Positions 1,248 to 20,900 of a stretch of DNA of 64,000 bases are shown piece after piece. Within the stretch, counting starts at the first letter, position 1, and every line of letters starts with the position of its first letter. The notes beneath the pieces are model-generated. The model was not told the DNA's origin. It did no database searches and saw nothing but the letters and a program-made list of their open reading frames with translations. Origin of the DNA: Chrysaora quinquecirrha (taxonomy: Eukaryota > Cnidaria > Scyphozoa > Semaeostomeae > Pelagiidae); contig JACTAT010000046.1 in NCBI GenBank assembly GCA_014526335.1, forward strand, positions 416,183-480,182. The letters run 5' to 3'. The position numbers were made by a program, and so were the translations under genes.

Positions 1248-1537
1248 CACACTTTTCTTAATTAGAAACTCGTTTATAAGCAACTCAGTACTGAAATCAA
1301 TATTGGTTGAGACACTTTGAGTGCTCGACCGACCCAAAATGATAAGAAACTCGCAGGTCTCAACTCTCAACGATCTTAAGAATTAGGAATGTAGCCTCGA
1401 GAAAAGAACCTGTTTTGGCATTAATATTAAAGTTTTGATCCTTAAGAAACTGCTAAGAAACTTTCAGTATCAAAATTCTGCAAAATTAAGAAACTTTTGG
1501 TACTGAAAAAATCTTAGTTGCTTATAAAAAGAGAATA
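1248..1537. mobile_element. MITE, TA/CAC group, words AGAAACT and AAGCAAC
   Basis: The left end is TACACACTTTTC, then a segment with ATAAGCAACT and CAGTACTG. The right end is the reverse: CAGTACC-like sequence inverted, AGTTGCTTATAAAAAG. Inside, AAGAAACT recurs several times. The right terminus is diverged (GAGAATA instead of GTGTA). Confidence 0.55.
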
Positions 1538-2426
1538 TATTTGATTGCTTGCGACCCTCAGACCCTTGAAGATTTTTGCACTCTTTTGTTTAAGAACCCA
1601 CTTTATTAGGACATTTGGGCTCCATTTGCCAAAAAGAAGTAAGAACATGTCCAGATTGAGATGAAAAATTAGGAAAAATTTCATTTTACCCGTCCACAAA
1701 GCAGAATTTTGCAATAACGAAATCAAAGTAGATAGCAGATACTGTATGCAAATTCTTATGAAAAATTAGTGATCCAAGTGTATCATATATCAAGTGAATC
1801 AAACTGACAGTTGGATGGTAAAATGGCTTAATTCATCATTTATTATCCGGAACAGGGCCACACCCAATTACCACACCCAAATTCCACACCAAAATTCCAA
1901 AATAATTCCGAGCTTTTCGGATTACTGAGCTTGAGAAAGATAAATTGACCGAGAATTGCTCCATCTGGGCAAGTCCTGTGTTACGATTTTTTTTACAAGA
2001 ACAACCTTACGTATACAAGACACCAGTCTGTTGGTCAAATTTTTTGCTATCTCAGAAACTATCTGAGATACGTGCAAGCGATATTCATTAGCGCGAAGCC
2101 CTTGCCCGGAGCATTTTAGAATAAACATGTCTTTGAGAAGGGGGTGAAAAGCTTGTTAAAAATTGCTTCCAAAATAAGAAACAGACAGGCTTTAATTGGT
2201 GCCAAGTGTTCTTGTCCTAGGGTCCTAGTGGTTCTTATAAAAAGCGTGTTTACGTCTACTACAGTACTATATTACCCCGTCACCAACAAACTAACTTATA
2301 AGAAACTGCTCCCTGTCTGTCAGATGGCACAATATACGCCCATTTGATATATATTCGTATATATTTATAAGAAACCAAGTAGCCTGGGGGTAATATTATA
2401 CCTGGAAATAAAATCTTAATACTCTT
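1538..2426. other. Intergenic with fragments of the TA/CAC MITE group
   Basis: No gene seen. A right-end-like piece, GGTTCTTATAAAAAGCGTG, lies at about 2230-2250, and ATAAGAAAC pieces follow near 2300-2380. No complete element is delimited. Confidence 0.4.
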
Positions 2427-17900: not shown

Positions 17901-20900
17901 GAACCTCTCCAAACAGCAACCTAGCCTTAAGGCCTGGCTAAACTAGGAGACATGTCGCATGCGACATTGATGTCCCTTCGGTGTCTCCCAGTTTAGCCAT
18001 CTCAAAAACATTGCAGCGTGCGACAAAATTTCTAGCAAGAGACTCGCAAATGTGAGCCAACAGAAACACTTCTTGTCTCCGCGACATGCAAATGACTCAG
18101 GCGACATGTTGCTCGCTTGTCAGTCGCATGTTTAGCCACCTTTGGAGACACGCCGATTGCAGTGTCGCGCGCGACAAGTCTCCTAGTTTAGCCATAGCTT
18201 TAAACATGATTCTGACACAAGAAAACACGTACACTCTCTTTTTATAAGGATCAAATTATTTTTGCCGAGGCTCGATGTTCTTATTTTTTTAATAATTTGA
18301 GGCTCGATTGTTCTTAATGGCGTTCTTATTTCAACAATGATATTTCTACATTTCCATACAAGAAATTTCTTCTACGAACACTGAATAAACATTTTGCATA
18401 TCTTTCATGTACTTTTATATGGTAACTGCGTAGTTCTGTGTTGTTAACATGAGATGAAATTTCTAATTACACGTTGTATTGTTTCTTTTTTTCATCTAAG
18501 GCTGAGCATGTTCTTCCGTTGTTCTTATTTTTTTTTGGCAAATCGAGCCTCGATCATCTTATGAAGTGTGTTCTTATAAAGATAAGAGTGTACTTGACAA
18601 CCCGAATTGTGCAGAGAATTACATTACAGCGAGGATTGTCTTCAAATCATTGGCAAAGCAAGATCTTTGTTCCATTTAGGTATTTGAAAACCTGTCCACA
18701 TCAAAACCATAAGAGGCCGGTTCTATGCAGACAGAAAGGGTTCGTTTTCTCACTTTGAGTCTCCAGTTAACTCCATTGTTCTCCCCACTGTAACAGATTT
18801 TTGTCTGATGTTTTCTTTATGATACTTGGAAGCGTTTTATCAAAAGTACTCACCCAAGTAGCCTAGACCCAAGGTGTCAGCTCGTTTTCGTTCCAATGTG
18901 CGAGACGTTTTTATTTTTTGTAAACCATTAACACAAGCAGTTAAAACATTGAAATAGTGCAAAATTCGATTTCGTCTGCTTTAAAAAGCGAGGATCCATT
19001 GATAAAAACCCTACGCGGTTCTTATAGGGATTAATTTACAATGATCACATCAACTGACCATCACATCAATGACTGGTAAAAATGTCAGGATGCTTTTTGG
19101 AGTCGAAAACTATGTGGCTACTTTCGTTAGCTACTTAAAAATTTTCTCTTTTTTGCCAATTCCAACGCAATCCAACGGAACAGCTCGTTTACAAAATCGA
19201 TCGCCAAAAAGAAAAAAATTCCGTGTTGAATTGAATTTCCTTTGGCACGATGCGCAAATAGGCGATAAAATTTCCTACAGCTAATGGGAATCGAAGTTCT
19301 AAAATTCGACAACGAAAGGGCAACGTTATGAAAAGAGAAGAAAAACCACAGATTATGTATGAATCATGTCTCTCAGAAATAACTCGTTTCTTTCACGTTA
19401 GATATTTCTGATACTTTTCAACCATTGGTGTGACGAAGACGCTAGGAGGCCCGTAGGAATTTAGTGAGATGAGGCCCTTACGCAGGGAGGGTGAAGCAAT
19501 ATGAACCCTACGGGGGAGGAGGCTCGATGTATTGGGTAATTTTTGAAAAGTGTCATTTAGAACCTTGAAAAATGCACGTTACATGTCCTCAGGTTAGTGA
19601 CTGTTCATGGGATGGCCTCAGGAGAAACCTTTTAGTATGGCCATAAAGCAAACAAAGCGACAAATTTGTCATGTCCTGAAATGTGTCTCTTTTGGCTTGA
19701 ACTCGCTTCTCATGCACTATGTGGAGGCACACGTCAAATGACAAAGTGTTTCCAACGAATAAGTCAATTTGGAAGAACACAAACAAACTTTTCGGCGACT
19801 CTCCTCACTCTTCAGGATGAGTCTGAGTCTATGACGTGTGGGCCATCATCATAGATTGCCATTCAAACTTGCCCCAGACGCCTGACACACATAGATGGGG
19901 TGGCGTGGCCGAGTGGTCAAGGCGTTCGGGTCATGATCGTGGGTTCAAATCTCGTCGGGTCACTTTCCACAGCGTAGCTCAGCTGTCCTCCTTCCGAGGT
20001 CGGTAAATGAGTTTCCAAGGTATTCGTTCTAGAATATCAGTCTGGGACTCAAGCTGCAGGTCCATATCAGCTAGAAAAATACCAGAACCTACGACCCGTC
20101 AATTGAGCATCCTTATAACCAATGTTGATGGAGCTCCCCCAGGCGTCATCCCTTATTATTATAAGTGCCATATCGAACAAGGACGTTGACGATCATGGAT
20201 TTCCACCTCACGCGTTCCTTTGTTGCTTTCCGCACCTCCTGTTCAGATATGCCCATCCATCTGCTGATGCTGCATGCATAATTAACCTTTGCCGTCCCCT
20301 GCTCCTCTTTCCTTCCATCTTTCCTGTCGATATCAGATTTTCATGTTCTTCTTTCCTCATGACATGGCCCAGAAACTGAAGCTGCGTTTACACGAGAGAA
20401 AATGGATCGGATCTAAAGTGGATCGGATCCAGAAGTTCTAGTTTTGGCACGACTAGGCCTTCCGTTTACACGAGGCACGGATCCGATCCACTTTTGGGTC
20501 TAGCGATAGACGCGTGCGTTGTTTTCTGATAGTTGTGCAGTAATTTATAATAATATTTTCGAAAAGAGCCAGTTTTGGATCGGATCCACAAGTAGATCGG
20601 ATCTAAACTGCAACTATTTTCAATGCGATCCAAAAATTGGATCAGTTGACGGACCAGAAATGGATCGGATTGTGTGTAAACGCAAGGCCTATCCGTACCA
20701 AAAAGTAGATCGGATCCACTTTGGATCCGATCCACTTGAAGTATAATTTTCGAATGGACACGATTAATCATCTCCCCACTCCTGATCTTTTGCCTCATCA
20801 AAACCTCATCATTTGCAAACAACTTCACGCTAGCGAATCTATAATCACTACTGTGGTGGATAATCACTACTGTGGTGGTACTATTTGCGTACTGTGGTGG

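Follow-up and report, generated by a model that had tools for sequence, protein, structure and literature searches.

Subterminal words that change in concert mark families of miniature transposable elements in Chrysaora quinquecirrha

A 64,000-nucleotide stretch of the Chrysaora quinquecirrha genome (contig JACTAT010000046.1, positions 416,183 to 480,182 of the forward strand, assembly GCA_014526335.1), hereafter the window, carries members of one clan of miniature inverted-repeat transposable elements (MITEs); BLAST with representative copies located 14 of them, whole or as larger fragments. The constant terminus of the clan is TA/CAC-N-T run-ATAAG, and what follows it, here called the word, differs from family to family. 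The elements listed in an earlier note on this DNA are present as described there, with two changes to their grouping. Three elements that had been put together as an 'AAGAAC' family (5895, 13456 and 18230) belong to three different families, and of those listed at 13458 and 13691 the first is a single AACA element, split by the second, an AATA element nested in it. Two partial GAAC elements, at 12264-12385 and 12684-12975, come in addition to that list. A weak AACA-like piece lies at 1579-1647 (77% over 71 bases in BLAST), and two word clusters, near 3833 and 11987, gave no BLAST match to the representatives.

Table 1. Members of the clan in the window, with their words and second motifs.
Position	Strand	Family	Word	Second motif	Description	Basis
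1246..1540	+	AAAC_B	AAGAAAC	AGTACT-like	MITE, internally deleted	sequence reading, BLAST
2427..2793	-	AATA_B	AAGAATA	AGGCT	MITE, TACAC...GTGTA at both ends	representative
3246..3635	+	CAAC_1	AAGCAAC	AGGGCT	MITE, right end TATAC	
4590..4846	+	CAAC_2	AAGCAAC		MITE, shorter, mutated ends	
5895..6254	+	AACA_C	AAGAACA		MITE	representative
6882..7237	-	AAAGT	AAGAAAGT		MITE, CACG ends	representative; genome-wide ends counted
9373..9630	+	CAAC_2			MITE, at the end of the tandem array of ~165-bp units	
12264..12385	-	GAAC_A	AAGGAAC		right-end fragment	BLAST
12684..12975	+	GAAC_B			partial copy, 75% identity	BLAST
13456..14196	-	AACA_A			MITE, split by the AATA_A element 13689-14066	
13689..14066	-	AATA_A	AAGAATA		MITE, nested in AACA_A, TA flanks	
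14498..14904	-	GAAC_B	AAGGAAC	AGAACT at right site R2	MITE	representative
14977..15722	-	GAAGT	AAGGAAGT/AAGGAATT	AGTACT	MITE, 746 bp, left end poorly preserved	representative
18230..18592	-	AACA_B	AAGAACA	GAGGCTC	MITE	representative

Pattern searches over the whole assembly (328 Mb, 740 contigs) returned 1367 + 1424 = 2,791 matches to a strict end pattern, TACACWTTTTTTNN{0,4}ATAAG, and 0 + 2 to its reversed control. A version specific for the words of AAAGT and GAAGT gave 370 + 385 matches (reversed, 0 + 0), and a left-end pattern without the word gave 487 + 452, that is, 939 left ends (control, 19 + 18). Ninety non-overlapping BLAST matches to 13 representatives were obtained in 327 kb, a non-random sample made up of the window, loci picked for containing such ends and five transposase loci. 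The distance from end to end is 140-392 bp in 33 of 34 paired elements and 767 bp in the remaining one; all 34 have TACAC..GTGTA termini, which the search pattern required, and in several other copies the exact TACAC is gone from one end. The elements are short, non-coding as far as lists of open reading frames show, present in high copy number, bounded by inverted ends and flanked by a target duplication. They are MITEs, about ten or more families of them built on a common layout in one genome. No match was found in Rfam, nor in a Pfam scan of four open reading frames of the window. The eight matches on viral contigs are mutually alike and differ from these MITEs.

The 13 representatives, six of which come from the window, can be aligned in register at either end, and most share one layout with up to eight sites. 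At the left end the terminal ATAAG runs into the word, a second copy of which lies 15 bp inward (sites La and Lb); in most families two further internal copies follow, 10-11 or about 31 bp apart. At the right end, inverted copies come after the terminal word; most families have three, of which the final two are spaced by about 11 bp. Left and right ends are asymmetric, and multiple subterminal repeats stand on both sides, as they do in CACTA/EnSpm (CMC) elements. Most internal sites are bipartite: TAAG plus the word is followed directly by a quasi-palindrome, AG(N1-2)CT. The earlier note had grouped the elements by their common ends, and was right about the shared terminus, but the asymmetry of left and right and the second half-site had escaped it.

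Had the families descended from a common source with each site changing independently, the words at different sites within a family would be no more alike than those at different sites of different families. For the 13 representatives and eight automatically picked sites, with mis-picked sites kept, the agreement between words is 0.677 within families and 0.449 between them, and none of 2,000 within-site permutations reaches the observed value. Individual copies were typed in the window and in loci L001-L040 and L051-L055, where 16 of 105 ends lack a second word and 72 of the other 89 have identical four-letter words. Among 51 left ends listed, which are rows from the 939 and come from the first contigs only, the first and second words are identical in 42, shuffling giving a mean of 10.9 and a maximum of 23. 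Genome-wide, CAAC is followed by CAAC 15 bp inward 1,479 times, whereas discordant pairs number 59 (CAAC, then A/G/T-AAC) and 84 (A/G/T-AAC, then CAAC); all controls are 0. Such copy counts owe part of their agreement to descent within families; the permutation test on representatives is cleaner, though some representatives stand for related families. There is strong support for the word having been replaced in concert at the terminal and the internal sites. The earlier note had claimed this, and the comparison of words across sites bears it out; equally well supported, by the alignments and permutation tests, is its distinction of a shared CAC end from words proper to each family.

The second motif also agrees better within families than between them (8.1 vs 6.5 of 14; 0 of 1,000 permutations), in a run on 11 of the 13 representatives from which GAAGT and CAAC_2 were dropped. 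It reads AGGGCT in CAAC_1, AGAACT in AAAC_A and at site R2 of GAAC_B, and AGTACT in AAAC_B and at two sites of GAAGT, and AGGCT or its complement serves in GAAC_A and in the AATA and AACA families. Three words, namely the GAAC of GAAC_A, AATA and AACA, are accordingly paired with AGGCT-type second motifs, and one word, AAAC, is paired with two: AGAACT in AAAC_A, and AGTACT (Lb, Lc and R2) with AGTACC (R3) in AAAC_B. The latter two families can be aligned at both ends, with the word kept and the second motif changed. A given word does not imply a given second motif, nor the reverse. In at least one GAAC_B copy, GAAC replaces the AAAC of AAAC_A at seven of the eight sites, with AAAGAAC at Lc, the remaining one; this pair of families is not a clean change of one half, because the second motifs differ at three of four sites too. 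A modular recognition code, in which two independently changeable half-sites would be rewritten at all sites as the two modules of a protein shift their specificity, is a reading that we put forward tentatively. In the available parts of the literature on concerted subterminal words, no description of such a bipartite, modular site structure was found.

The target site could be read in two places. A local-repeat partner near 5762 reads GGCTAGTTTAATATTGAACAATG, with TA once, and the filled site of the element at 5895-6254 has TA on both sides. When the nested AATA_A element is compared with an uninterrupted AACA_A copy in L016, a duplicated dinucleotide is apparent, which reads TA here but has become TG in the diverged copy. 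Past the TA, one further base agrees in 6 and in 7 of the 34 pairs, and the duplication extends no longer. The target duplication is 2 bp, TA, which fits both CACTA/EnSpm (2-4 bp) and Tc1/mariner.

Taken together, we propose, with a probability of roughly 0.6, that the elements form one clan of non-autonomous DNA transposons with two-part recognition of CACTA (En/Spm) type. The most likely superfamily, to which we assign them with moderate confidence, is CMC/EnSpm (CACTA). The common CAC end would be read by a catalytic transposase, while each family would have its own DNA-binding protein or domain, with two modules for reading the bipartite sites, to which it would probably bind cooperatively; if its specificity shifted, matching changes in the sites would be selected, so that each family would track one autonomous lineage. 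The word is best taken as a putative protein-binding site. If the words are indeed binding sites specific to their families, about ten natural variants of a single protein-DNA interface coexist in one genome, both half-sites vary, and the words that were counted are represented by hundreds to thousands of ends. The origin of orthogonal transposon systems, whose families cannot cross-mobilise, together with the route by which specificity changes at many sites, would become testable. Should the modular code hold as well, sister families would be invisible to each other's transposition machinery despite their common catalytic end, and would be directly readable natural experiments in the evolution of DNA-binding specificity.

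The earlier note could put no name to such replacement across sister families. Its reading of the words as concerted stands, but precedents can be named, in soybean CACTA elements and Arabidopsis VANDAL elements. In soybean CACTA elements, divergent subterminal motifs lie under conserved ends that serve the transposase, and co-evolving TNPA-like binding proteins have been proposed (PMC2613891). Tgmt*/Tgm1 resemble the present clan in their conserved CAC ends, asymmetric subterminal repeats and diversification within a species, and also in the TCTTA part (reverse complement TAAGA) that the soybean motifs have in common with those of En-1 (PMC2613891). The plant element Tgmt* is 20.5 kb long and duplicates 3 bp (PMC2613891), whereas the clan consists of MITEs only, with a TA duplication and two half-sites per site. 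Among VANDAL elements, too, related families differ in a short repeated motif, which the VANC protein of the family recognises, but those motifs build up through the formation of tandem repeats and have a role in anti-silencing (PMC5735166), whereas the motifs of the clan are single or paired at colinear sites near both ends. What the clan displays is, on well-supported grounds, a known kind of evolution in an unusually clear case. Two further groups are alike in part. The CMITEs of Acropora corals are also an animal MITE group with several families, but are linked to piggyBac-like elements and have internal regions more conserved between families than their terminal repeats (PMC2872659), the reverse of the conserved ends and differing interiors seen here. 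In the CMCT clade, duplications are 2-5 bp and ends are CA..TG in most members; ESTA has TA duplications, although these are fungal elements with a TET/JBP gene, and the word 'subterminal' is absent from the paper (PMC12730594).

Several other explanations have to be weighed against CACTA-type recognition. The least remote, though in our view unlikely, is that the same architecture was moved by a transposase of Tc1/mariner type or another that duplicates TA, with a bipartite paired-like domain reading the half-sites. Sites of about 22 bp in two parts would suit a domain with two helix-turn-helix units, the duplication is TA, and DDE_3 (Tc1/mariner) domains are present in the genome, where 150 hits were scored among 251 candidates. 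CMC is the better match for CAC..GTG ends with numerous subterminal sites at either side (PMC12730594, PMC2613891). No listed DDE_3 place was seen next to a listed clan end, a weak argument since the comparison was made by eye on about the first 100 places of each list. Considerably less probable is that a host factor, such as a repressor, a silencing protein or a replication protein, reads the words and that families diverge to escape or exploit it. The VANDAL/VANC motifs, which serve anti-silencing, do show that a family word need not be the site of a cleavage complex (PMC5735166), but a host factor accounts poorly for family-by-family words on a constant layout, and the sites, among them the terminal word, keep a constant distance from the cut ends.

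If one end had been duplicated onto the other, or had converted it, the words would likewise be equalised, with no selection by a binding protein; we regard this as improbable. For 12 of the 13 representatives (GAAGT left out), the left-right score is 22.4 within families and 14.1 between them, a difference that none of 5,000 permutations reaches. Once words and second motifs are masked, the ends of a family are slightly but not clearly more alike (7.5 vs 6.9), 548 of 5,000 permutations reaching as much. Within-family likeness of the ends resides mainly in the sites, which argues against end duplication, and the site spacings differ between the left and right halves as well. Hardly worth maintaining is the view that a single family has drifted and its words vary at random, an outcome that the earlier note had itself named among those that would refute its reading: single copies do contain mutated words (17 of 89 typed ends; 9 of 51 listed left ends), but the permutation test on the representatives excludes this view, and the excess of concordant over discordant CAAC pairs tells against it.

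A number of observations weigh against two-part recognition of CACTA type, or against its details. CAC ends with TA are compatible with Tc1/mariner too. CAAC_2 has no inner sites, and the left end of GAAGT fits the layout poorly. On visual inspection of the alignments, the composite sites of the interior point one way and the right terminal word alone is inverted; the claim rests on these alignments, because an automatic count gave 26 sites on the plus strand and 10 on the minus strand and was blind to the AGGCT type. The 17 typed ends with unlike words are point-mutated or mis-typed. Two AAAC_B copies contain CAAC: that at 1246-1540 has AAGCAAC at the second left and right terminal sites and AAGAAAC at its internal ones, and L001:1850-2233 has CAAC at the second left site. 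At the left ends C2:2498526 and C2:6084292 the first site has AACAAC and the second AAAC, perhaps marking a family with two differing terminal words. The presence of CAAC at one or two sites in copies of the AAAC families may reflect decay, or such copies may be captured intermediates of a word change; they are too few to decide between the two.

The remaining points of this kind concern the autonomous partner. The genome has 15 Transposase_21 (PF02992) hits; five loci were read over 9 kb, four of them distinct, as L052 and L053 are a 99.5% duplicate, and about 3.5 kb or less was seen around each of the other hits. In the five loci no autonomous copy with clan ends was found: L051, L052, L053 and L055 contain AATA-family MITEs or fragments only, as insertions. 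The five loci have no CAC inverted ends with at least 12 of 14 matches and a common flank, and two 11/14 matches, flanked by AT and AA, were taken as chance. The Transposase_21 element of L055 (C290:390600-399600; copies on C212, C2 and C311) spans at least 8.5 kb; its four copies are about 99% similar, and all have the right end CACGGCAAGAAATGG, of CAC type. TA beside this end was read in L055 alone, the C311 match stopping before it, and as a partner the element was rejected for its right end CACGGC..., its other subterminal sequences and the lack of an exact 20-bp copy at the far side. A second Transposase_21 element, at 488-6899 of L054 (C424:2741487-2747898), has the right boundary CCCTTAAGAAAAAG and relatives on C348 (205554-211936, a 98% copy, and 607812-608910) and C102 (1449997-1451790, internally deleted). 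An old CAAC left-end-like stretch beside its transposase frame (87% over 38 bases) is not a terminus, because the C348 and C102 copies run 292 bases further, to 6895-6899; judged from the match ranges, the stretch lies within those copies too. A weaker end-like stretch upstream scored 20 over a background of 19 and was discarded.

Judged by its right end, neither element is the partner of the clan. They do show that elements of CACTA type occur in this genome: the first ends in CAC, and the second repeats a subterminal word peculiar to it, a GCAAACTT-like word that recurs several times within 200 bases inside the right end of the L054 element. The CCC end of the latter recalls animal CACTA relatives, which have 2-bp duplications (PMC1636069). 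A protein search with one Transposase_21 frame gave 65 relatives, nearly all with that domain, the named ones including Hydractinia, Mytilus and a fungus. PHIS (Harbinger/ISL2EU) transposases were considered as a source and set aside, the TA/CAC ends of the clan standing against published PHIS duplications of TWA or AT and ends that mostly start with A or G (GG in ISL2EU) (PMC4482050); a TA-duplicating fungal PHIS group does exist (PMC12730594).

Some observations were made beside these. PHIS (DDE_Tnp_4) transposases are very abundant, with 895 candidates, 150 of them scored, and many long open frames. DDE_3 hits on C247, C368, C282, C386, C290 and C2 are spaced about 3-4 kb apart on one strand, as if in Tc1-like tandem arrays. 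L054 also contains a repeat at 7774-8655, some 880 bases long, for which over 30 matches of 88-93% identity were listed. The loci examined carry animal-type genes, for a rhodopsin-type G-protein-coupled receptor, an fn3/purple acid phosphatase and an S-adenosylmethionine synthetase. In the window itself, 3840-4370 is a long low-complexity stretch rich in GAA/GAAG, with several frames open on both strands, and a tandem array of about 165-bp units occupies ~7540-9360, where a short word marks 11 units (starts 7547-9193) and a CAAC_2 MITE stands at the end of the array.

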